Below, in pieces: positions 4,543-15,931 of a DNA stretch of 33,660 nucleotides. The translations under genes were made by a program, and so were the position numbers. This DNA is from Spirochaetota bacterium (GTDB lineage: Bacteria; Spirochaetota; B62-G9; DRHN01), in contig CP070841.1 of assembly GCA_020342115.1 (NCBI GenBank), forward strand, positions 141,987 through 175,646, given 5' to 3'. Position 1 is the stretch's first letter; each line of letters begins with the position of its first letter. The notes below the pieces were generated by a model. It did no database searches, was not told the DNA's origin, and saw only the letters and a list, made by a program, of their open reading frames with translations.

Positions 4543-4630
4543 TGGACCTCCAACTAAATATTGTTTAAAGCAGTATGAGAATTAGCTGATTTTATATTAA
4601 AACTATCCATACTGCAAGACAATCTGTAGA

Positions 4631-4697
4631 GTATAGGGACACATTTTTTAATTATTGTTAAAACTTTGTAATTGTACTTAAGAAAGATGTCCTATCA
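4631..4697. repeat. intergenic inverted-repeat element A
   Basis: The left arm (4631-4655) matches 19 of 25 positions of the element consensus (core GGGGACATGTTACTTAATT). The right arm (about 4671-4697) is a degenerate reverse complement containing GATGTCCTAT. It lies between the amidohydrolase and the 2TM gene, and its right arm runs into the amidohydrolase stop codon at 4695-4697. As RNA it would fold into an imperfect hairpin and may act as a 3-prime end signal. It is the most diverged copy apart from D. Confidence 0.55.
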
Positions 4698-6185
4698 ATT
4701 CTGCGTTACTTCCTGGTTTATTTCAGCGATTTGATCAAGTATTGTGTCTAAATCATTTCGTGTATACCAGCGGCCCCGCACCATCACACCTTCTATTAGT
4801 CTGGTATTAGTAATATCCTCCAGCGGATTCGCTTCCAGTAAAACAAGGTCAGCTTGCTTACCTATTTCTATTGTGCCAAATTCATTCAGTTTATTAAGAT
4901 ACAAAGCTGGATTGTATGTGCTCGTTTTCAGGGCGTCGAAAGTAGATATACCAAGGTCTACTATGACTTCCAACTCATCATGCAGAGAAAAGCCTGGCAC
5001 CATCAGCGGAACGTTTGAATCAGTTCCAGACATCAGAAGAGCGCCTTCTTCGTTTAATGCAACACACATCTTTTCCATCGCATCAATGTAGTTACTTATA
5101 CCTTCGAGCACTTCTTCTTTTGGCCTTTCAGGATCTGCTACATAATGGTTTTTCCCGGGGATCCAAACTTGATTCAGAAGGCCGGGGTTCACATACTTAA
5201 GATCCTGCATTTCATCCAATTCGTCTTCAAGATTGTATCTTTGCTTGCGTATCGATTGGATGAGAGCAATAGTTGTCGTTACCCATATTTTATCATCAGC
5301 AACATCCTTAGCCGTTTTTTGAATGCTCTCGTCCGTCCAATCCACTATTTTGATTAGTTCCTCAACATGAGCAACAGCCTCCTGACCCAGTTCCCGAAAC
5401 TCATTCCAGCTGCGCGTTTTATCCTCACTGAAGTTAAATAATACTGGTACATGTCCATCAAGAGACAAATCATACTTATGCGCTGATGACATGAGAACCC
5501 GATATGAATCTAGGGATTCAAAAAAACCATTATGCACCTTGATTCCGTCATAACCCTGAGCTTTGAATTCCGCAACCAGTTTCTCCGCCTTTTTAGGGGT
5601 GTTTGCAGTACAGACACCTCCAGAATAAATCCATGATTCCTTAATCCAATCAAACCAATCCATCTCACGAATCCAGGGGCTCCATACCCATAAATTTGGA
5701 CCGGGCCTGGTTCCAGCGTTGATTTCATCACGCCATTGCAGGCGAATGGGAGGCCCGCCCACATCTCGTATTGTAGTAACACCATTTGCAATATATAGCA
5801 TAAGATCGTTCTCACTGTTTAATAGGTGGGCATGCATGTCACTCAGACCAGGTATTAGAAACCTGCCATGCCCATCAACTGTCAACGCTTCTTGAGGAAT
5901 CTCAACTGCTGAAACGGGGCCCATTTCTGAGATACGGCCATCTTCAATAATGACTGTGTGTCCTTTCAGCAAACGTTCACTGTCCATGGGTATGACATTG
6001 ATATTCTCAAAAGCGACCATTTTTTCTGTTCCCGGAGGAATCATTTCAAGCGCTAGAGCTGTCTTGCTATGTGCTTTAACGGTATCCTTTGGACCAAGAA
6101 CAACAACATAAGCCACTACAAATACTATTATCAACCCGACAATGATACCAATCCCTATCCCAACCCATTTCAATGCTTTATTCAT
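4695..6185 (-). CDS. Membrane-anchored amidohydrolase (metal-dependent hydrolase), paralog 1
   Basis: This 496-residue member of the amidohydrolase superfamily has a TIM-barrel metal centre. The ligands are visible: HAH at 118-120, the Lys usually carboxylated at 216 (GIKVHNG), His245 (DGHVP), His273 (VAHVEEL) and Asp389 (SGTDSN). A small beta domain is built from residues 55-115 and the C-terminal segment after 440 (GTIEIGKQADLVLLEANPL). It resembles imidazolonepropionase/prolidase-like enzymes; the substrate is unknown. The N-terminus is one hydrophobic helix (residues 7-30) without a clear cleavage site. The enzyme is probably anchored and faces the periplasm. AAGGAT precedes the ATG. A paralog lies just upstream on the same strand, separated by a repeat element. 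Confidence 0.82.
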   Translation of the reverse strand: MNKALKWVGIGIGIIVGLIIVFVVAYVVVLGPKDTVKAHSKTALALEMIPPGTEKMVAFENINVIPMDSERLLKGHTVIIEDGRISEMGPVSAVEIPQEALTVDGHGRFLIPGLSDMHAHLLNSENDLMLYIANGVTTIRDVGGPPIRLQWRDEINAGTRPGPNLWVWSPWIREMDWFDWIKESWIYSGGVCTANTPKKAEKLVAEFKAQGYDGIKVHNGFFESLDSYRVLMSSAHKYDLSLDGHVPVLFNFSEDKTRSWNEFRELGQEAVAHVEELIKIVDWTDESIQKTAKDVADDKIWVTTTIALIQSIRKQRYNLEDELDEMQDLKYVNPGLLNQVWIPGKNHYVADPERPKEEVLEGISNYIDAMEKMCVALNEEGALLMSGTDSNVPLMVPGFSLHDELEVIVDLGISTFDALKTSTYNPALYLNKLNEFGTIEIGKQADLVLLEANPLEDITNTRLIEGVMVRGRWYTRNDLDTILDQIAEINQEVTQN

Positions 6186-6233
6186 GATTTATCCTTAAAA
6201 GAGATTATTTAATACGGTTACTACATAACAGAT

Positions 6234-6301
6234 TTCCAGGGACTCTTGACTTAATTCTTAATCCAAATATGTTATAATAATTAAGGTATATGTCCCTGTA
6301 A
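6234..6301. repeat. intergenic inverted-repeat element B
   Basis: The left arm at 6234-6258 matches 17 of 25 consensus positions. The right arm at 6277-6301 matches 20 of 25 when reverse-complemented, with about 18 bases between them. It is the only recognisable structure in the 160-base gap between the two amidohydrolase genes. It could act as a stem-loop that separates their expression. Confidence 0.65.
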
Positions 6302-6346
6302 TTATTTCCCATTAGTACTTCAATAAATAATTGACTAACCAGGTGG

Positions 6347-7795
6347 TTACTTTTTTATTGATTCATAGAAAACAGGAAGTTCTTCAAGTCTAATCTGGAT
6401 TTCAAATTTTGAAATCCACCTGCCGCCAATCATCACACCTGCAATCTTGCTGGTATTAGTAATCTCTTCAAGAGGATTTGCCTCTAAAAGAACCAGATTA
6501 GCCCGTTTGCCAACCTCGATAGTCCCTGCCTCATCAGGCTCACCCAGGAATTCGAAGGGATATGTTGTAGATGTTCTCAAAGCTTCATATGGAGTTAATC
6601 CGACATCAACCAGTTCCTTGAGCTCCCTGTGAAGTGAAAATCCGGGTATAGTGGTTGGTACAAGAGCATCGGTACCTGCCAGTAACCTGGCCCCCTTATC
6701 ATGTAACGCCTTTGTGAATGGTTTCTCGAACAAATCAAATCCCTTTTTCAGTGCATCTCGATGTTCCGGGGGCATCTTTAAATATATGTTCGTAGTTAAG
6801 AATGACCATACTCCCAGAGCCATGGGATGAAGGTAGCGGACTTCTGGTCGAGTGAGCTCTTTATCATAGCCGTCCAGGATTGCGAGGAGATTTTTTTTCA
6901 TTATGAGGGTTGGCGTAATCCATATATCGCTTTCGGCTATGATTTCTGCGTAATAATTTATATTTTCCTGATCGTAATTTCCCTTTGTATGTTTCATGAC
7001 CTCTTCCGAATGAGCAATGAGGTTTTGACCAGCCTCCAGAATATACTCCACAGACAGGACCATAGGGATATGGCCTTCTACAGGCATTCCAACCTCTTTT
7101 GCTGTAGCCATGATCGAGTCGTAGGATTCCTGGTTCAGAAAGGAATAGACTTTCATCTTATCATACCCGGCTTCTTTCGCATCCAGTACAGCCTGTCGTG
7201 CTTGATCGGCTGTCTCAACCCAGGTGCTCAAAGGAGGCGGCCAGGCCTGCCCAGGACCATCAATCATCCTGGCTAGAATAAGCCTGGGACCAAGGATCTC
7301 ACCCCGGCTAATCTGGTCTCGAAGAGGTATATGTTCCGGCAGGGCGGACATAACCTGGATTGTGGCTACACCATTAGCCACGTAAAGAAAGAGCAACTTG
7401 CTGAAATCCAGCTCGTCAGCTGAAAATTGTGCTTCTGGAGGGAACATTATATTCCAGCTTTCTCCAAGCATATGGACATGCATGTCAGAAAGGGAAGGGA
7501 TCAGGTACTTGCCAGTTGTATCTTTCATGGTAGCACCAGTAGGTATGTTCGTTGAAGATGCAGGTCCAATCTTGTTAATACGGCCGTTTTGAACGATTAC
7601 AGTCTGATCCAGAAGAACGCGCTCTTTGTCCATGGGTATGACATTGACATGAACAAATGCAAAACTTTCACTTTCCGGAAGTTCTGTGCTTTCTGTTCCA
7701 AACAAAGGTTTTACTACAGTCTGCCCGCTTAACCACAGAATTGTTACGCACAGGCATATTTTGATAATTTTTTTTCTATCAAACAATTTAGACAT
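6347..7795 (-). CDS. Exported amidohydrolase (metal-dependent hydrolase), paralog 2
   Basis: This 482-residue amidohydrolase has the same architecture as its neighbour. Metal ligands are HVH at 106-108, Lys215 (DKMKVYSF), His242 (EGHIP), His262 (IAHSEEV) and Asp375 (AGTDAL). The C-terminal GTIEVGKRANLVLLEANPLE is nearly the same as in paralog 1. By eye the two are clearly homologous across their whole length but far from identical. The N-terminus is a positively charged segment followed by a hydrophobic stretch (residues 10-27), either a signal peptide or an anchor. Paralog 2 has an insertion after the HxH motif (about residues 111-132). AAGGAG precedes the ATG. The substrate is unknown. The DUF4097 gene lies immediately upstream, 49 bases away. 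Confidence 0.82.
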   Translation of the reverse strand: MSKLFDRKKIIKICLCVTILWLSGQTVVKPLFGTESTELPESESFAFVHVNVIPMDKERVLLDQTVIVQNGRINKIGPASSTNIPTGATMKDTTGKYLIPSLSDMHVHMLGESWNIMFPPEAQFSADELDFSKLLFLYVANGVATIQVMSALPEHIPLRDQISRGEILGPRLILARMIDGPGQAWPPPLSTWVETADQARQAVLDAKEAGYDKMKVYSFLNQESYDSIMATAKEVGMPVEGHIPMVLSVEYILEAGQNLIAHSEEVMKHTKGNYDQENINYYAEIIAESDIWITPTLIMKKNLLAILDGYDKELTRPEVRYLHPMALGVWSFLTTNIYLKMPPEHRDALKKGFDLFEKPFTKALHDKGARLLAGTDALVPTTIPGFSLHRELKELVDVGLTPYEALRTSTTYPFEFLGEPDEAGTIEVGKRANLVLLEANPLEEITNTSKIAGVMIGGRWISKFEIQIRLEELPVFYESIKK

Positions 7796-7844
7796 GGTAA
7801 ATGCTCCTTTTTCAGTCTGTTGATCGGTTCAATGAATAAATATC

Positions 7845-8783
7845 CTATCTATATGTCTGAGCGCCGGAAGTGCTTTTACCAGTTATTTTGATTCCACCGC
7901 TTCCGAATACCAGCCTGCCCCTGGCCTTTGATTGGCCCACATTCAGCATACCGGATTTTGAACTCAGATCAAAGGAAAATTCATCAATATCGTTGACAAA
8001 ATCGAAGCTAATCCTGCCTGAAGAGGTGGTGAATGAAGAATCTCCTTTAAGATGCACATCATCTCCTTCAAGCGCACCTGATGTTGCTTCTAAAGTGAGG
8101 GTACCTGTCTGATCATGGATTATGATTTTTCCTGAAGTCGACTGGGCATCGATATTTCCCATGATTCCTTCATACATCTGTCCACCTGAGGTAGAATTTG
8201 CAGAGATATTACCTGTACCCTCTCTGAGCGATATTCTTCCGGAAGTGCTTTTTATACCCATTGCACCTTTACAGTTATTGATTACAATAGCTCCTGAGGT
8301 GCTTTTTGTAATAACGTTAGTAGCGCTTAGATCTTCTGCCTGAATTTTCCCGGAAGTGGATTCGAGCCTAATTTCATCTGTTTGGATCTGCTCTGCTTCT
8401 ATTTTACCGGAAGATGTTTTCAGGTCTACTCTGGTATCCATGGGTACACGAATCTGGATAATAGCTTCATCCGTGAACCTGGGAATAGCGATTTTTTTAT
8501 GCAGGACCTGGACTTCAAGAACACTTCCATTTTTCGAATGCACTACCTCTACAAATTTATCTTTAAAGAGTGTTTGAGGTATGGCGATCTTGCCTTCAAC
8601 AATACTTCCTGAGTAGCCTGTAATATCTACCTTGAAGAATAAACCATCTACCTTCAGTTCTTTGATACCACTATACTCGAATGTTTCTTCCATGGGTGCT
8701 CCTTTCACTTCTTTTATGGTTAAACAAGAGACAGCCAAAAGCGTGCATAATGTGACTGCCATGAATTTAATGGTACTTTTCAT
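7845..8783 (-). CDS. DUF4097-type repeat protein, likely lipoprotein
   Basis: This 312-residue exported protein has a hydrophobic leader ending in LLAVSC (Cys20), a possible lipobox, although Ala at -3 is not the commonest choice. From about residue 105 onward a turn motif S(T/S)SG recurs roughly every 18-25 residues, about nine times, for example TSSGKIEA, STSGKIQA, STSGAIVI and STSGRISL. This is the pattern of DUF4097 (putative adhesin) proteins, which are expected to form a beta-solenoid or beta-prism (family knowledge). The function is unknown. The start has AGGAGG upstream (about 8793-8798). It is in line with the amidohydrolases. Repeat element C lies just upstream and may contain or interrupt its promoter. 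Confidence 0.75.
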   Translation of the reverse strand: MKSTIKFMAVTLCTLLAVSCLTIKEVKGAPMEETFEYSGIKELKVDGLFFKVDITGYSGSIVEGKIAIPQTLFKDKFVEVVHSKNGSVLEVQVLHKKIAIPRFTDEAIIQIRVPMDTRVDLKTSSGKIEAEQIQTDEIRLESTSGKIQAEDLSATNVITKSTSGAIVINNCKGAMGIKSTSGRISLREGTGNISANSTSGGQMYEGIMGNIDAQSTSGKIIIHDQTGTLTLEATSGALEGDDVHLKGDSSFTTSSGRISFDFVNDIDEFSFDLSSKSGMLNVGQSKARGRLVFGSGGIKITGKSTSGAQTYR

Positions 8784-8809
8784 TTTATTGCCTCCTGGAG
8801 TTTTGGGAG

Positions 8810-8877
8810 TTATGGGGACATGTTATTTAATTATTAATACAAAAATGTAATGATAATTAAGTAAGATGCCCCCTTAA
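8810..8877. repeat. intergenic inverted-repeat element C
   Basis: The left arm (8810-8834) differs from the consensus at one base. The right arm (8853-8877) matches 22 of 25 positions when reverse-complemented; the spacer is 18 bases. It fills the 94-base gap between the DUF4097 gene and the membrane-protein gene, ending directly at the stop codon of the latter (8878-8880). A strong hairpin is expected in RNA. Confidence 0.75.
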
Positions 8878-9876
8878 TTATCCAAATAACTGGCTCAGTG
8901 CCGAATCAATCAGCAACCCGACAACCCATGAAACAACTGGAATAAACAGGTAGAGGATTACCCGGAAAAAGGTCGAAGTGCGAAATGGCCACTCTGGAAC
9001 CCGATCAATGAAACGATAATATGTAGTGAGGTCCGCTATCTGACCCTGTGCTGAACCAGTCGATGAATCCTTAAGATGTATCCGGGCTTCACGAAGCTTT
9101 TCAAGGGTCCAGGTTAATTCTTTCTTTTTTACCTCAAGAATTCGTTTATGAACTCCATAAGCTGGAAGGAAAAGACCGAGGAACGCGAGAGACAAAATGA
9201 GACTCGCCAAGCCTGCGACAGTCACTCCCATCTTCTGTTCTATAAGAGTGAAGCTGAAAATAGCAGCGACTCCTGTAATAATCAAAGCGTTTATGAGACC
9301 CTGACGTACGAATGGTTCAAGTGGCTTCAAATCGAGCAAATCAATCGATCGGATTAAGGTTGCAGTGCGGGAAACCTGTATAGATCTTTTCACAACAGCA
9401 TACCCTAGCCAACCTATCCACCAGCCAATCACTGGTCCAAGAATTCTGTGCCACACAATCTCTGGAGTCCATCCGTTTGGGTCCCATGGTGACTGATCAT
9501 ACAAAGATAAATAAGGAGTCAGCACGGAAAAGAGGAAACCCAGGATGCCGAACACCACCAGCCATTTTTTTGCTAACCGGTAATCCGTCATGCTCCCACT
9601 CTCATCGCTTGAGGTAAGCAATGGTGTAAGTTCATGGATGATCGAACGTGCACTTCGCAATATATAGAGATACGCTGCAGGGAGGTATCCGGCAAGAAGG
9701 CAGTGTATTATAGCAATTCTAAAATTCCGAATTTCAATGTATGCTGATTGTCTGAATATTACAGTAAACCGCCCGAGCAACTGCTCACCAATAAAAAACC
9801 CGATAAGAAGCAAGACGCTTATACTAATACCTATCAGCGCGGGAGTAACTCCTGGTTTTACTTTCAATTGAGACAT
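8878..9876 (-). CDS. Polytopic membrane protein of unknown function
   Basis: I do not recognise this 332-residue protein. It has about seven hydrophobic segments, near residues 13-30, 53-73, 104-123, 144-162, 194-212, 219-240 and 304-326. Between segments six and seven is a charged helical stretch (244-270, rich in Lys, Glu and Arg) that could form a coiled coil. A Trp-rich stretch (about residues 131-157, with WTPEIVWHRILGPVIGWWIG) is striking. No catalytic motif is seen. AGGA precedes the ATG. The next upstream gene encodes a CPBP protease, 108 bases away, and no promoter or other feature is evident in that gap. Confidence 0.65.
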   Translation of the reverse strand: MSQLKVKPGVTPALIGISISVLLLIGFFIGEQLLGRFTVIFRQSAYIEIRNFRIAIIHCLLAGYLPAAYLYILRSARSIIHELTPLLTSSDESGSMTDYRLAKKWLVVFGILGFLFSVLTPYLSLYDQSPWDPNGWTPEIVWHRILGPVIGWWIGWLGYAVVKRSIQVSRTATLIRSIDLLDLKPLEPFVRQGLINALIITGVAAIFSFTLIEQKMGVTVAGLASLILSLAFLGLFLPAYGVHKRILEVKKKELTWTLEKLREARIHLKDSSTGSAQGQIADLTTYYRFIDRVPEWPFRTSTFFRVILYLFIPVVSWVVGLLIDSALSQLFG

Positions 9877-9984
9877 CTGTTTTCCTGTTTGCAGAACAGC
9901 TGATTATCATACCTATGAATAAATGTTAAATACACTCATATAAAGTTTAAATTTTTATGATCTCTGCCTGTATCATATTGAATT

Positions 9985-10788
9985 TTACCCAGCGCCAAAC
10001 ACAGCTGGTATCAATTGCACAAATGCAAACAGAAAGTTCCCTACCCAATGGAAGATCATTGCCAGCAGCAGGCTTCCCATCGGTCCGGCAACAAATGCAA
10101 AGCAAATGCTGCCAGCCAATATGCCGGGGTATACCCAACGCTGGTAAATGTGTTTTAGACAGAAACCAATCCCATTAGCTACCCAATCCCACTTACCGAA
10201 CACACCTCGCATTTTCGGGAGAAGCAGACCGCGATAATAAAGCTCCTCACCTATGATGTTGAAGACGAGGCCGATGACAAAGAAAACAGCAAGAAAGAGA
10301 TAGTTTCCTGTAAGAATGATATCTGGAAATACATCCGATACACTTTTAATTTCCGCTATAGGGTTGGACATGGGCGGCCACCATGCTGGCGGGATGAAAC
10401 CCGGCACAGTCGCCAATACCTTATTGAGCCGGCCGATTACCATTGTAAGTGCAAATGCGACGATAAAAACGACAATTGCCAATATCCATTTCTTCCAGCC
10501 TGCTGGCCAGCGAAGCCGCACCCGCTCACGTAATCCGCTGTAGGTAAGTTTAAAACCTTCACGACGCAGAAGAATAAGAGCGACGACCAGTTCAGCGCCC
10601 CCTCCAAGGGTAATCACCGCTAAAAAGATCGATGTAGGTAGAAACTCTCCAGGTGTTGGTGAATAAAACAACGGCACGATAAGATGAATCAGGAGCATAT
10701 ACCATGCCGCTGGCCAGACAAACATCAAAATAATCATAGCCAGGGAATATTGTTGTATTTCCGAAGATCCAGTATCGTTTTGAGCCAT
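9985..10788 (-). CDS. CPBP-family intramembrane glutamic protease
   Basis: This 267-residue membrane protein has all CPBP (CAAX protease and bacteriocin-processing, ABI) motifs. These are GEELYYRGLLLPKM with the Glu pair at 181-182 and Arg186, GFCLKH with His213, and FHWVGNF with His247 and Asn251. Related enzymes cleave or modify membrane-embedded substrates, such as prenylated proteins, anti-sigma factors or bacteriocins; the substrate here is unknown. Segments before motif 1 (about 17-40, 52-75, 101-120 and 162-180) are hydrophobic. The start has GGAGGAT about ten bases upstream. It sits in the same orientation as the unknown polytopic protein behind it and the 48-residue protein ahead of it. 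Confidence 0.85.
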   Translation of the reverse strand: MAQNDTGSSEIQQYSLAMIILMFVWPAAWYMLLIHLIVPLFYSPTPGEFLPTSIFLAVITLGGGAELVVALILLRREGFKLTYSGLRERVRLRWPAGWKKWILAIVVFIVAFALTMVIGRLNKVLATVPGFIPPAWWPPMSNPIAEIKSVSDVFPDIILTGNYLFLAVFFVIGLVFNIIGEELYYRGLLLPKMRGVFGKWDWVANGIGFCLKHIYQRWVYPGILAGSICFAFVAGPMGSLLLAMIFHWVGNFLFAFVQLIPAVFGAG

Positions 10789-10858
10789 AATAATATCCTC
10801 CAGTGCGGTAATAATTCATTTTTCTACATCATCATTATGCTATATTACTTATACTAGA

Positions 10859-11005
10859 TCACTTTTTGGTTTTTTTCTCTTTCAATTCTTTTATGTCTTC
10901 TTTAAGCTCTTCAACTTCTTTTCTTAAGTTCGATACCAGTACTAATGCAACGATTCCCAGCACCAAACCTGCCAAACCAAATGGTAATGGCATAAATGAT
11001 CCCAT
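10859..11005 (-). CDS. 48-residue single-pass membrane/coiled-coil protein
   Basis: From ATG at 11005 to TGA at 10859-10861 an intact 48-residue frame reads MGSFMPLPFGLAGLVLGIVA and continues with LVLVSNLRKEVEELKEDIKE and a Lys-rich end. The first half is one hydrophobic helix (about residues 5-24). The second half is a charged heptad-like helix (Leu/Val at coiled-coil spacing), ending LKEKKTKK. GAGGAG at 11013-11018 sits seven bases before the ATG, which supports translation. It resembles small membrane-anchored coiled-coil proteins found beside stress or envelope genes, but I recognise no named family. It lies between the acyltransferase and the CPBP protease genes on the same strand. Confidence 0.7.
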   Translation of the reverse strand: MGSFMPLPFGLAGLVLGIVALVLVSNLRKEVEELKEDIKELKEKKTKK

Positions 11006-11054
11006 TTTTTCACTCCTCGATTATATTTGTTATATAACCACTCTCATTATATTG

Positions 11055-12203
11055 CTATTTTTGTGAACTTGCTGAAGCCCTCTTCACTTTCATTCCAAAC
11101 AGAAACCTGAGAACACCTACTCGCCTTATCCCTTCAAACAATACAATTATTGCAATAAAGGAAAGTACCACGATGATAATGAATTTCATCACGATTGGAA
11201 TTTTGAGCTGAATGACCCAAAACGCAATGAGCACAATGATGGGCTGATGAAGAACATAAAAAGGCAGGACCCCTTCATTTGCATAACGTATAAACCTGCC
11301 AGCACCGGTAAGATATTTCATTCCGAAACCTAGAATCGCCATGATAAGACACCAGGACGAAAGCACGTAGTGAAACCAGCCCAGCTGGAATGGTGAAGGC
11401 CTGAAGGAGAATCTGAATACACGGAACAGTAAATAGAGAACGATGCCTACAATGAGAGACACCCATCGCTGCCTCATGATTGACTCCTGGATTCTCTTAT
11501 CTGCAAAAAACATGAACCCAAAAAAGAGCACACTTATGTAGTAGATGATATTCCAATCAGCGAATCCCTCTCTCATTCCAAAAAAACTCTCTGGATTAAT
11601 AAAGGCCATGGGGACTGTCAATATGAGCCCCAGTACATAGATCATACCTGGAATCCTCAGGAATGATCCAAATGATTTAGTAACTGGTCTACCTCTCTCG
11701 GAGCGCAGGAATAGAAAAAGAGGAAGCAGTATGAGAGAGAACATGAACAGGAATAACAGATACCACAAGTGATGTCCTGCAATGGCAAAGTTGCCCCCGA
11801 ATCCATATACACCTTCAAAATATTGCGGAAACCATTTTATGAATGACCCGGAGACTTGACCATTGGTTAACCGTTCTATGTAAACCTGGTGAGGGGAAAG
11901 AATGAAGATACCGAAAACTAGGGGAACCAGGAGCCGAAGAACCTTTCCCCTTAGAAATCTGCCTGCTTTCTGAAAACCAAGACTGTACCATATGCTGGCT
12001 CCGGAAATAATGAAGATTGTGGGCAGCATCCAGGCCAACATAAACTGTGCAAAGTATATCATTCCGGAAGAGCCAACCGGATCATTGATATGCCAGGGGA
12101 TCGGTAAGAAGGCCCTGCCGCTGTGAAACAGGAACACAGAAAGTATGAGCAGCACTCTCAGCCAGTCAAGATCGAGCCGTCTCTCAGGTTTTGATTTTTC
12201 CAT
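11055..12203 (-). CDS. Acyltransferase-3 family membrane protein, paralog 1
   Basis: This 382-residue inner-membrane protein has about ten hydrophobic segments. The N-terminal motif LDLDWLRVLLILSVFLFHSG carries the conserved His27 typical of acyltransferase family 3, the group that includes OpgC/MdoC-like and NodX-like enzymes. Such proteins move acyl groups such as acetyl or succinyl across the membrane onto sugars of the cell surface. The acceptor here is unknown. The C-terminal half has the family-typical NEGVLPFYVLHQPIIVLIAF. TAAGGAGG (complement of about 12211-12218) is an essentially perfect SD seven to eight bases from the ATG. It is followed upstream by a paralog after a 45-base gap. 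The two genes are likely co-transcribed. Confidence 0.85.
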   Translation of the reverse strand: MEKSKPERRLDLDWLRVLLILSVFLFHSGRAFLPIPWHINDPVGSSGMIYFAQFMLAWMLPTIFIISGASIWYSLGFQKAGRFLRGKVLRLLVPLVFGIFILSPHQVYIERLTNGQVSGSFIKWFPQYFEGVYGFGGNFAIAGHHLWYLLFLFMFSLILLPLFLFLRSERGRPVTKSFGSFLRIPGMIYVLGLILTVPMAFINPESFFGMREGFADWNIIYYISVLFFGFMFFADKRIQESIMRQRWVSLIVGIVLYLLFRVFRFSFRPSPFQLGWFHYVLSSWCLIMAILGFGMKYLTGAGRFIRYANEGVLPFYVLHQPIIVLIAFWVIQLKIPIVMKFIIIVVLSFIAIIVLFEGIRRVGVLRFLFGMKVKRASASSQK

Positions 12204-12248
12204 TTGTGATTCCTCCTTATATGATTCTCATTGTACCAAGTTAAGAGA

Positions 12249-13442
12249 CTATTCTTTAACCGGTTTCTTCTTTAGCCTCATGCCGAAAAGAAACCGTACC
12301 CAATTGAAATGTCTGACCACTCCTTCATAAAGTCCACCGATCAACACAAAGGAAATCACAGCGATAATCAGGAATTTAGGCAGTATACCCATGTCCCATC
12401 GTATAACGAACCAGCCGACACAGAGTATGACTGTCTGATGAAATATGTAGAAGGGGAGCACAGCCTCATTGCTGTAGGTGAGTACCTTTTTTGGTGATCT
12501 CATATACATTGCTCCCAGGCTTAGTAAGAAGATGACACTGCTCCAGCTCATAATGCTATAGACAATTTGGAAGAGCACATACTTCAGTGAGAAGGGCTCA
12601 TAGTCTGGGAATTTGTACCCTAATACAAGAATGAAGAAGAATATACCACCTGCACCGGCGATCCATAGCGCCAGGCATACCCATCTGTGTTTTTTAAAGC
12701 CTTCTGTAAATTTTGGATTGGCAGCCATGATGTAGCCTATCATAAAAAAGGTCATGTAGTAGAGAAAATCCGCCCACGTCCGTTCACCCCTGAAGAGAAA
12801 TCTGAGACCTATCAGAAAGACTGCCATGGGGATTACAAATATGAATACGCCTCCAGGTCGTTCACACACTCCGGCAAGCTTACCGATCAGACGCTGCCCC
12901 TTTTCCGATTTAAGATAGAGAAGAAGCGGGAGTGTTATGAGAGAGATAAGAAAGAGCCACTGGAGAAACCACAAATGACCGGGGAAGCCAAAGGGTACCA
13001 GAAAGCTGGGATATTGAAGAGCATGAGGGGCAAAGCCTATAATATCTCGAGGCAGTCCGGCAAAGTATTGTGGGAGGAACTGCCAGAAGGTGTCTGATAA
13101 ACCTCGATTGGTAACAAGCTCGAACCAGAGCTGAGGGGCAAGAAGGACGATCATACCCACTCCATAGAGAGGTATCAATAGGCGCTTGACCCTCTCGACG
13201 AGATACTGTCCACCGTTTCTCGACCTCAATGAAAACCAGGAAGCGGCACCACTGAGCAGGAAGAGGAGTTCCATAACCCAAACCCAGATAAAAAAGAATC
13301 TCACTCCAAGCACTGTGAATGACTGCTCGGCATTTTTCAAATGCCAGCTCCCTATATCAAAGAACCTGGAGCTGTGCATAATGAATATTCCCAGTATTGC
13401 CACAACTCTCAGCCAATCTATATCATATCTACGTTCTGTCAT
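12249..13442 (-). CDS. Acyltransferase-3 family membrane protein, paralog 2
   Basis: This 397-residue protein is a paralog of the next gene. It shares the N-terminal signature (YDIDWLRVVAILGIFIMHSS, His23), the LSGAASWFSL segment, the PQYFAG segment, the Trp-rich HLWFLQWLF segment and the C-terminal NEAVLPFYIFHQTVIL with RFLFGMRLKKK. About ten membrane segments are visible. The role is presumably transfer of an acyl group to a surface or periplasmic glycan; the acceptor is unknown. AAGGAGGT precedes the ATG by eight bases, a near-perfect SD. Repeat element D lies just upstream. Two side-by-side acyltransferase-3 genes suggest duplication and then divergence of acceptor specificity, which is inference. 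Confidence 0.85.
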   Translation of the reverse strand: MTERRYDIDWLRVVAILGIFIMHSSRFFDIGSWHLKNAEQSFTVLGVRFFFIWVWVMELLFLLSGAASWFSLRSRNGGQYLVERVKRLLIPLYGVGMIVLLAPQLWFELVTNRGLSDTFWQFLPQYFAGLPRDIIGFAPHALQYPSFLVPFGFPGHLWFLQWLFLISLITLPLLLYLKSEKGQRLIGKLAGVCERPGGVFIFVIPMAVFLIGLRFLFRGERTWADFLYYMTFFMIGYIMAANPKFTEGFKKHRWVCLALWIAGAGGIFFFILVLGYKFPDYEPFSLKYVLFQIVYSIMSWSSVIFLLSLGAMYMRSPKKVLTYSNEAVLPFYIFHQTVILCVGWFVIRWDMGILPKFLIIAVISFVLIGGLYEGVVRHFNWVRFLFGMRLKKKPVKE

Positions 13443-13482
13443 GATTTTACCTCCTTTTTAGCATTTTCTGTTTTCTCGAGAG

Positions 13483-13553
13483 TTCCGGGAAGAGTTTACT
13501 TAATAATTAATCCAAATATATCATTATGAAAAAGTATACTGTAACCTTAATTA
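13483..13553. repeat. intergenic inverted-repeat element D
   Basis: The left arm near 13483-13507 matches about 18 of 25 consensus positions. The right arm (about 13531-13553, containing AGTATACTGTAACCTTAATT) differs from element F's right arm at one base over that stretch and is only loosely complementary to its own left arm. It may be a mosaic of two element variants. It lies in the 207-base gap between the acyltransferase pair and the Gly-rich pair. The rest of that gap (13554-13650) is AT-rich with nothing recognisable. Confidence 0.5.
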
Positions 13554-13650
13554 TTGATGGATCTCCTGGAATTAACTGATAGAAATAAACCGATGAGAAT
13601 ATTTTAAAGAGATACTAAAAAAATACTTTTTTTCAATTAGCTTAGTTTTA

Positions 13651-14208
13651 CTAAAACGATCCGAATTTAAGTACGATTTCTCCAGCAAGTCCGCTTAACG
13701 AGGCATCGCTTACCCCCGAAAGACCTGTTGCTCCAATAACAAATCGATAGCTCACTCCTGCACAGAGACGAAAGAAACTAGTAATATTGAATTCTGCATC
13801 TATCCCTGGTTCAAGGACAAAGAAAGCAGCCCCCGGATCTTCTTTATCAAAAGTAGCATTGCCAGCACCAATTAGTGTGCCTGCTTTGAAGTGTATAATT
13901 TCATCCGAGAAGCCAATATATTCTGCCACAAGGCCGCCATACCCAAAAACGAGTTTGTTTCCTGATACGAAGATATCGGTAGTCAACCCGTAACCTCCAC
14001 CTCCTATAAGGAAGGTGTGGTTAATTATCCAGCCACCATACCCTCCGACCAGAATACCAAAGGTGTTATTGAGATAGGTCAGTTTTACAACAGGGCCTCC
14101 GCCTCCTCCATGCGTCACTTCTTCCCCGATGAGAGTTTTTTGCTGTGCATTCACAGCAGCAGGGACTACTACGAGTAATACCAGGAATAATAGAATAAAC
14201 TTTTTCAT
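13651..14208 (-). CDS. Gly-rich exported protein, paralog 1
   Basis: This 185-residue protein starts with a clear Sec signal peptide (about residues 1-21, ending AAVNA before QQK). The mature part is rich in Gly and aromatic residues. It alternates hydrophobic and polar positions, as in beta-strand proteins, for example VGGYGGWIINHTFLIGGGGYG, followed by IGFSDEIIHFKAGTLIGAG and a C-terminus ending LKFGSF, that is, ending in an aromatic residue. A small outer-membrane beta-barrel or surface protein is a reasonable guess. I do not recognise a named family. The motif EEVTHGGGGGPVVKLTYLN near the mature N-terminus is shared with its neighbour. AGGAGG lies six to seven bases before the ATG. Confidence 0.7.
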   Translation of the reverse strand: MKKFILLFLVLLVVVPAAVNAQQKTLIGEEVTHGGGGGPVVKLTYLNNTFGILVGGYGGWIINHTFLIGGGGYGLTTDIFVSGNKLVFGYGGLVAEYIGFSDEIIHFKAGTLIGAGNATFDKEDPGAAFFVLEPGIDAEFNITSFFRLCAGVSYRFVIGATGLSGVSDASLSGLAGEIVLKFGSF

Positions 14209-14235
14209 AGTAACCTCCTATTTGTATTTATTAGA

Positions 14236-14796
14236 CTAGAACCATCCAAATTTAGCCACGAGTTCTCCGGCCAGGCCGCTTAAAGAGGCATCGCTTACCC
14301 CAGTAATGCCGTTCGCGCCGATAACGAACCTGTAGCTCAAACCTGCACAGACGCGAAAAAAGCTGACTATGTTGATCTCCACGTCAGCTCCGGGTTCAAG
14401 CACAAAAAATCCTCTATTATCAACGTTTGCTGGACCAAGGTACGCATCTCCCCAGCCGATTAGTGTACCGGCTTTGAAATGTATCAATTCATCTGAGAAG
14501 CCAATGTACTCAGCTACAAGGCCGCCGTATCCGAAATTCAGCTTTTCTCCAGAAACAAAAATGTCGGTAGTCAGCCCATAACCTCCACCGCCAAGCAAAA
14601 ACATATGGTTGATGATCCAGCCTCCATACCCGCCTGTGAGGACACAAAAGGTGTTATTTAGATAGGTAAACTTCACAGCAGGACCTCCGGCACCTCCATG
14701 TGTCACATCTTCCCCCACAAGGGTCTTTTGCTGTGCATTTACGGCAACAGGGATCATAACAATCAAAACCATGAGTAAAAAAATGTACTTTTTCAT
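14236..14796 (-). CDS. Gly-rich exported protein, paralog 2
   Basis: This 186-residue protein is a tandem duplicate of the next gene, only 27 bases away, and by eye is mostly identical in sequence. It shares the signal peptide, the DVTHGGAGGPAVKFTYLN segment, GGYGGWIINHMFLLGGGGYG, the EYIGFSDELIHFKAGTLIGWG segment and the C-terminal GVSDASLSGLAGELVAKFGWF region (differing at a few places). Differences concentrate around residues 112-125. Export is clear from the leader; function is unknown. AAGGAG precedes the ATG. The compound repeat element E lies about 20 bases upstream of the start codon, so the promoter must lie within or beyond that repeat. Confidence 0.7.
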   Translation of the reverse strand: MKKYIFLLMVLIVMIPVAVNAQQKTLVGEDVTHGGAGGPAVKFTYLNNTFCVLTGGYGGWIINHMFLLGGGGYGLTTDIFVSGEKLNFGYGGLVAEYIGFSDELIHFKAGTLIGWGDAYLGPANVDNRGFFVLEPGADVEINIVSFFRVCAGLSYRFVIGANGITGVSDASLSGLAGELVAKFGWF

Positions 14797-14815
14797 ATCT
14801 ATTCTCCTTGCAAAG

Positions 14816-14934
14816 TTATGGGGACATGTTACTTAATTATGGTTACAATTTTGCCATTAGCATAGTTATTGGGACACGTTACTTAATTATTGGTTTCATA
14901 TATGTAAACATAATTAAGTAACATGTCCCCATAA
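14816..14934. repeat. compound inverted-repeat element E (two left arms, one right arm)
   Basis: The left arm at 14816-14840 and the right arm at 14910-14934 form a perfect 25-base inverted repeat (TTATGGGGACATGTTACTTA plus ATTAT). A second left arm lies at 14866-14890, 23 of 25 identical and in the same direction, exactly 50 bases after the first. It could pair with the same right arm. Only about 19 bases separate the inner pair. This is the best-preserved copy of the family and sits upstream of the Gly-rich protein gene. Confidence 0.8.
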
Positions 14935-15020
14935 TTTTCAGTACCATTATTCTACTTGAAAGAGAATATATGTCAATAAATCTTTAAGGTTTTTTATATT
15001 TGAAACATTTTTCATCGAGA

Positions 15021-15088
15021 GTTATGGTTGTAGTACCTTAATTATTACAAATATGTAATTATTATTTAGTATACTGCAACCTTAATTT
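15021..15088. repeat. intergenic inverted-repeat element F
   Basis: The left arm (ATGGTTGTAGTACCTTAATT region, 15021-15046) and the right arm (AGTATACTGCAACCTTAATT region, 15068-15088) are imperfect reverse complements. They form a variant of the family in which GGGGACATG is replaced by GGTTGTAGTA. Its right end lies ten bases from the ABC permease stop codon, where a transcript end is expected. Together with E it accounts for most of the 300-base gap between 14797 and 15097. Confidence 0.6.
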
Positions 15089-15097
15089 GACGAATCG

Positions 15098-15931
15098 CTA
15101 CTTCCACCTGATCAGAATCGTCTCTCTTTTGAAAAGTCTTTCTGCGGCCTTGAGCATGATCCAGTTAAGAATAAGCAGAACAACAGAGAGAATGATGAGC
15201 TTTGCAGGAGAGAATACCACAAATCCCAGGATCTGAAGTGCAACGATTGCAAGAATCGGAAGGATAACAACGACCGCTATGTTCTGAGCGGATTTTGCAT
15301 CCTGTGCTCTGGATGAGCCGGACACTCCCAGCATGAAAGATAGAAACGACACGAGAGGTACAAGGACAAAGAGCGATAGCCACCACTGGGGGTTAAGCAC
15401 CCACCTAAGAAGCTCTCTACTGCCCATTACCATAACTCCAACAAGAAAAATAACAGTGCAGATATAACTCATTATTATAGATGGGATCAAACCCGAGAGA
15501 GCTTTTCCAAGAAGGAGCTGCCTGGTTCGTACAGGGGTAGCCAGTAAGGGCTCGAGAGTTCTGGTTTGCTTCTCCTCCACGATGCTGAAGGATGCAAAAC
15601 TCATGGCAATCATGCATGGTATGAGAAGCTGGTAGATAGGGAATTGGCTGAAGAAAAAAACCTGCAATCTTTGTAGAGCCGAAAGTCCCTGCGGGACTGA
15701 GAATTGTACCAGCCATTTTTCGATTGCTCTTCCTATGATCGAATCGAGTATGAGGTCTGCACCGGCAAAACGCAGTACAAGAAAGATGTAAAGAAGTATC
15801 TGGAGTGTAATAAGTACAGGCACAAGCGTGATAAAAAGCGTATTGTTCAGGCTCCTGAATGTAATGAGCCACTCTTTTCTGATGACATGTGCTATAGGGT
15901 GTCTTTTTTTCTGATTAGTCCGATTCATCAA
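15098..15931 (-). CDS. ABC-2 type exporter permease
   Basis: This 277-residue inner-membrane protein has about six hydrophobic segments. The segment SIVEEKQTRTLEPLLATPVR, followed by TRQLLLGKALSGLIPSI, is the hallmark of ABC-2 permeases of the NatB/NosY-like type. It pairs with the ATPase encoded just upstream: the two frames overlap by 17 bases (15915-15931), so translation is probably coupled. The pair would export an unidentified substrate. Two ATGs in a row (MMN) give a start uncertainty of one codon. Repeat element F follows the stop codon directly and may mark the end of the transcript. Confidence 0.85.
   Translation of the reverse strand: MMNRTNQKKRHPIAHVIRKEWLITFRSLNNTLFITLVPVLITLQILLYIFLVLRFAGADLILDSIIGRAIEKWLVQFSVPQGLSALQRLQVFFFSQFPIYQLLIPCMIAMSFASFSIVEEKQTRTLEPLLATPVRTRQLLLGKALSGLIPSIIMSYICTVIFLVGVMVMGSRELLRWVLNPQWWLSLFVLVPLVSFLSFMLGVSGSSRAQDAKSAQNIAVVVILPILAIVALQILGFVVFSPAKLIILSVVLLILNWIMLKAAERLFKRETILIRWK

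Follow-up and report, generated by a model that had tools for sequence, protein, structure and literature searches.

Clustered intergenic palindromes in a Spirochaetota genome as probable orphan dimers of TIRYT-type terminal repeats

What are the short inverted repeats that occupy one region of a Spirochaetota genome, and what could have moved them there? The window analysed here, a stretch of 33,660 nucleotides (G000:C1:141987-175646), belongs to a single-contig genome of 3.53 Mb whose assembly is ~90% complete. A first-pass annotation of the window had described a REP-like family, linked it to a Tyr-type transposase and proposed that some copies may serve as terminators. The evidence gathered below indicates that the window copies are probably non-autonomous, MITE/REPIN-like dimers of TIRYT terminal-repeat arms, which are orphan in this genome.

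The six palindromes and their surroundings

Six palindromes of 64-76 nt each (~70 bases) lie between genes at 4.63-15.09 kb of the window. A repeat search of the window retrieved them as a direct-repeat family, D1, with copies at 4628, 6231, 8807, 13480, 14813 and 14864, and as a related family, D4, which adds 15039 (copy F), whereas the 18-base arm, allowing up to 3 mismatches, gave 6 matches versus 0.01 expected from shuffles. A covariance model recovered six window sites and no more, scoring 61-83 bits; this model was built from the window copies and one distant copy, so that their own scores are not independent, and the informative part of the search is the absence of other matches, with the next-best one at 11 bits and nothing further above 12 bits. 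These results bear out the six copies of one family that had been placed at 4631-15088, as well as their absence from the rest of the window. The alignment of both strands yielded the consensus TTAnGGGGACAnTTTACTTAATTATTATTACAAATTTGTAATAATAATTAAGTAAAnTGTCCCCnTAA, which implies that the whole element is one long imperfect palindrome.

The arms share the frame GGGGACA-N4-ACTTAATT and fall into two types, the type I arm GGGGACATGTTACTTAATT and the type II arm GG(GGAC/TTGC)AGTATACTTAATT, the second type being carried by copies D and F with the ending GTATACTG(C/T)AACC. An arm start similar to GGGGWSAS is present, with a full fit of type II (GGGGACAG) and 7/8 bases in type I (GGGGACAT), and several copies end in GGTTGCAG in place of this start. 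On the other hand, the aligned copies have TTATGGGGAC or TTAAGGTTGC at the 5′ hairpin foot and no GT[AG]G tetranucleotide, and neither a target-site signature nor a target-site duplication was identified for the palindromes.

The copies, given here without strand, range from near-perfect to decayed, as had been noted at first sight. Copy A (4628-4702; 62-63 bits; fold z -3.1) is decayed, with arms AGGGACACATTTTTTAATT / AGGACATCTTTCTTAA, and lies 3′ of an amidohydrolase gene, 4695-6185(-), whose final codons are overlapped by its outer flank, and copy B (6231-6305; 68 bits; fold z -2.8) is located 46 nt past the stop of a second amidohydrolase gene, 6347-7795(-). Copy C (8807-8881; 83 bits; -29.7 kcal/mol, z -7.7), the best-preserved single dimer, has type I arms and is found between a DUF4097 gene, 7845-8783(-), and an ORF, 8878-9876(-), whose stop codon it touches. 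Copy D (13480-13554; 63 bits), between an acyltransferase gene, 12249-13442(-), and an ORF, 13651-14208(-), is decayed and mixed, with one type II arm (GTATACTGTAACC) and a fold not above shuffles (z 0.14). Copy E (14813-14938; 76 bits; -51.1 kcal/mol, z -8.9) is a composite of three near-perfect type I arms, left 14820-14838(+), second left 14870-14888(+) and right 14912-14930(-); a similar three-arm composite occurs in the sister genome G003 (L111:1501-1580). For copy E, a promoter-like consensus match at 14976-14949(-), with 11/12 bases, would make the hairpin part of the leader belonging to the gene 14236-14796(-). Finally, copy F (15019-15089; 61-64 bits; fold z -4.7), with type II arms (GGTTGTAG / CTGCAACC), lies 11 nt past the stop of an ABC-2 permease gene, 15098-15931(-). 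At 446-2494 of the window, adjacent genes encode small and large NiFe-hydrogenase-like subunits (Oxidored_q6, NiFeSe_Hases).

The position of all six elements between co-directional genes, four of which (A, B, C and F) have a stop codon no more than 50 nt away, would suit functional 3′-end elements, either terminator-like or mRNA-stabilising hairpins selected at the gene ends of a co-directional run. Single-strand folding, which had been proposed as a check for each copy, gave strong structures for C, E and F and moderate ones for A and B, whereas that of D is lost, and TIR dimers are also expected to form strong hairpins. The stems lack the following T-run of an intrinsic terminator (a G+C-rich stem plus a T-run), and the ten terminator-like sites in the window equal the shuffled mean of 10.0, with only one weak stem, 13471-13493, overlapping an element (copy D), so that the earlier suggestion of terminators finds no backing here. 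The same arms are also seen next to transposase genes and in other phyla. A selected role at 3′ ends is considered unlikely.

Copies across the genome and its own Y1 transposases

At E <=0.01, the covariance model detected 18 places in the whole genome. The family had been called confined to this region, which holds inside the window and fails genome-wide, where ~12 further copies occur elsewhere; nevertheless, the genome-wide map reveals clustering far beyond chance, since six of the 18 within 10.5 kb would be expected with a probability of ~2.5e-8 under random placement. Copies outside the window are mostly of type II, such as TAATTAAGGTTGCAGTATACTTAATTATC...GTATACTGTCCCC, and in two of them, L003 and L008, the element is short, its arms lying 3-4 nt apart. 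All but one of the ten non-window copies examined lie outside ORFs of at least 110 aa, and most non-window copies adjoin unrelated genes. Two type II copies found 17 kb apart (L042 and L044) are 88% identical, and their similarity covers only 105 nt between unrelated neighbour genes, as expected for the insertion of a discrete unit; their co-duplication together with adjacent genes was rejected, because the similarity stops at the element.

Six palindromic, intergenic elements in 10.5 kb could also be regarded as operators, that is, as sites for a regulator of this gene region. However, palindromes of 68 nt are long for operators, most copies elsewhere are next to unrelated genes, the arms form arrays and pairs in other phyla, and copies D and A are badly decayed, which together make a regulatory origin scarcely credible. 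A third possibility is that tandem duplication of genes carried the copies along and was the only source of their increase, without transposition. The same 10 kb that hold the cluster do contain three adjacent paralogue pairs, namely amidohydrolases (4695-7795; 36% amino-acid identity), acyltransferases (11055-13442; 34%) and putative secreted proteins without a Pfam match (13651-14796; 75%), but the elements do not occupy equivalent positions in the paralogues, none separates the two genes of the recent pair 13651-14208 / 14236-14796, and the distant copies have unrelated neighbours, so that duplication as the sole source is very improbable. With respect to the cluster itself, a recent local amplification is not supported, as the window copies are on average 68% identical to each other versus 67% to distant copies, and this lack of closer kinship leaves the 10.5-kb cluster unexplained and counts against dispersal of terminal-repeat dimers, the reading preferred here. 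A foreign island is not supported by composition either, with a flat G+C of 0.40-0.46 over the whole window. As for empty sites, a counterpart of the anchor amidohydrolase is absent from 20 relatives.

The search for a RAYT/Y1 gene that had been proposed for this genome was partly successful. Three Y1 transposase genes (L025, L033 and L037) were found, all matching the REP-associated tyrosine transposase model NF047646, with one of them exceeding its cut-off, but they are only 25-34% identical to the clade described below, and the assembly (~90% complete) contains no member of this cognate clade, a point against the preferred reading. L033 and L037 have inverted repeats of their own at their boundaries, 33-36 nt long and starting with GGGGAC or GGGGGAC, and L025 is bounded by AGGGGTCAGCCCTTGACA-type repeats. 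These terminal repeats differ from the window arms, and the three enzymes were therefore rejected as movers of the window copies. A matching arm flanking the Y1 gene was likewise not seen for any of the three.

The Y1 genes of this genome show further features of their own. The terminal repeat of L033, GGGGACAGGCGTGTACTTTT, is scattered as single arms at 21 places of the genome (L119-L139; for example, G000:C1:601208, 722287 and 3025303), 12 of them exact, which indicates that TIR dispersal does occur in this genome. In nine of these copies the GGGGAC end abuts a perfect DnaA box, TTATCCACA, giving AAAGTTATCCACAGGGGACAGG, and at the right end of the L033 transposase gene the position of the box is taken by TTATCCAAA; judging from these sequences, the L033 repeat seems to be mobile and to disperse DnaA boxes. 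In addition, L025:1384-2439, at 920 kb, encodes a Y1 transposase with a C-terminal Bac_DnaA_C helix-turn-helix domain, an arrangement described for subclass 2.1.2 in PMC6006769.

A transposase clade bounded by similar arms

The sister genome G003 harbours 11 palindromes by the covariance model, 24 arm places and a transposase gene, L027 (protein P0001), whose upstream arm, GGGGACAGCATACTTAATT, is one base off the type II arm. Six relatives of L027 with 49-63% identity were collected (L036, L081, L084, L105, L106 and L107). Arms flank the gene on both sides as inverted repeats in L081 (GGGGACACTTTACTTAACT and GGGGACACGTTACTTATCT), L106 (GCGGACACCATACTTAATT and GGGGACACCATACTGATTT) and L107, the latter with the GGGGACAGTATA-type arms also present in L105, while L036 has GGGGACACAATACTTCAGG and L084 shows arrays of GGGGACACGACACTTAATT. 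In L027 the arm is found on one side only, because the contig ends there. When every fetched transposase was scored against the two window arms, 7/7 of those at least 49% identical to P0001 proved to have window-like arms no more than 400 bp from the gene, all within 1-4 mismatches of the window arms, versus 0/35 of the other Y1 transposases. The probability of this split is 3.7e-8, or ~1.5e-6 leaving out two of the seven clade loci, which come from genomes chosen for carrying the arm, and both values overstate the certainty, as related sequences are not independent draws. A branch with 89/86 support sets the seven transposases apart from the rest, and a search by sequence found no solved structure for the transposase. 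In any case, one clade bounded by the same arms supports the Tyr-type (Y1/RAYT-like) link of the first-pass annotation, whereas the REP form that it had proposed has to be replaced, the arms being GGGGAC terminal inverted repeats of the TIRYT class and not GTAG-tagged REPs.

The distribution among genomes is patchy. Palindromes are absent from four genomes of the same family (G001, G002, G004 and G005), of which G002 has a clade transposase with an in-frame TAG and yet no palindromes, a further point against the preferred reading. Among 296 genomes of the phylum, the type I arm with up to 1 mismatch appeared only in the genome under study, and exact matches to this arm came from five stretches, spread over four genomes with the labels Brocadiia, Alpha-, Gamma- and Deltaproteobacteria. 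No transposase lies directly beside the arm at these five loci of other phyla, and Y1 genes occur elsewhere in those genomes. In the Gamma genome G298, the GGGGACA-N4-ACTTAATT frame (up to 1 mismatch) occurs at 68 places, which repeatedly form head-to-head pairs with starts 57-58 nt apart, while reversed-pattern controls in the 24 genomes scanned gave 0-2 matches per genome. G358 and G360 have arms, and a search for clade members at the cut-off applied found none in them, suggesting that orphan copies may be common. An arm scan of viral contigs gave no match. In the Alphaproteobacterium OFTM101 (L075:178-277 and L076:2999-3143), 3-4 copies of the arm follow one another in direct tandem orientation at distances of 32-56 nt; these arrays share a GAAGAAAC leader and are unlike the head-to-head dimers of the window.

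Relation to known systems and proposed mobilization

The palindromes fit a known but little-studied class: the names TIRYT and TIRtron were introduced in 2013 by Di Nocera et al. (PMC3733652), with the motif GGGGWSAS and arms in dimers or clusters, and were further discussed by Quentin et al. 2018 (PMC6006769). As far as the portions of these two sources on which we draw describe TIRYT TIR families, the likeness comprises the arm start GGGG(A/T)(C/G)A without a GTAG tag, the arms as inverted repeats around a RAYT-like Y1 gene (here in other genomes) and a moderate copy number in dispersed dimers and clusters, as in the 18 places and six-copy cluster of this genome. The type I arms differ in the final base of GGGGWSAS (T for C/G), the cognate gene is missing from their own genome, and those portions do not mention a shared inner ACTTAATT block that goes with a single transposase clade. 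A literature search found neither a functional test of TIRYTs nor a match to the arm sequences. Like the REPINs/BIMEs of GTAG-tagged REPs with RAYTs (PMC3116915, PMC2817692), the elements are intergenic head-to-head dimers of a short repeat that form one long hairpin and are tied to a Y1 transposase family; unlike them, they lack the GT[AG]G tag at the hairpin foot and a local cognate transposase, pair through their two halves, a single arm not being clearly its own hairpin, and number ~18 instead of hundreds. They could also be compared with the MITEs of DDE-type insertion sequences, which are short, non-coding and intergenic with terminal inverted repeats, but the matching transposase is a Y1/HUH enzyme, and no duplicated target was seen.

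Each element would consist of two TIRYT-type Y1 (HUH single-tyrosine) terminal inverted repeats placed head to head, with a short stretch between them. The arms, folded as single strands, would be recognised by the transposase of an active system and cut near their GGGGAC end, and the hairpin-forming dimer would then be moved into intergenic DNA, as proposed for REPINs. Single-strand cleavage has been reported for IS608 and E. coli TnpA-REP, according to PMC6006769, and by analogy with such systems we infer the chemistry of cleavage and rejoining, the excision and the insertion of the palindromes, as well as the past loss of a local cognate transposase. The local copies are regarded as orphans in view of their decay and of an assembly that contains no member of the cognate clade; they are now probably immobile, and if they affect mRNA ends or stability, this would be a by-product.

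A more speculative proposal, offered tentatively, is that GGGGACA-N4-ACTTAATT arms are a recognition code of one TIRYT clade, with a fixed outer and inner frame and an N4 that, in a pattern seen in seven loci, drifts with each transposase lineage, and that the dimers would reach different phyla and, once the transposase is lost, survive there as orphans in clusters. In any case, the clean pairing of one transposase clade with one arm frame in several unrelated genomes offers a defined substrate for in-vitro cleavage tests, and the orphan, clustered state of the copies described here bears on the fate of such repeats once their transposase is lost.
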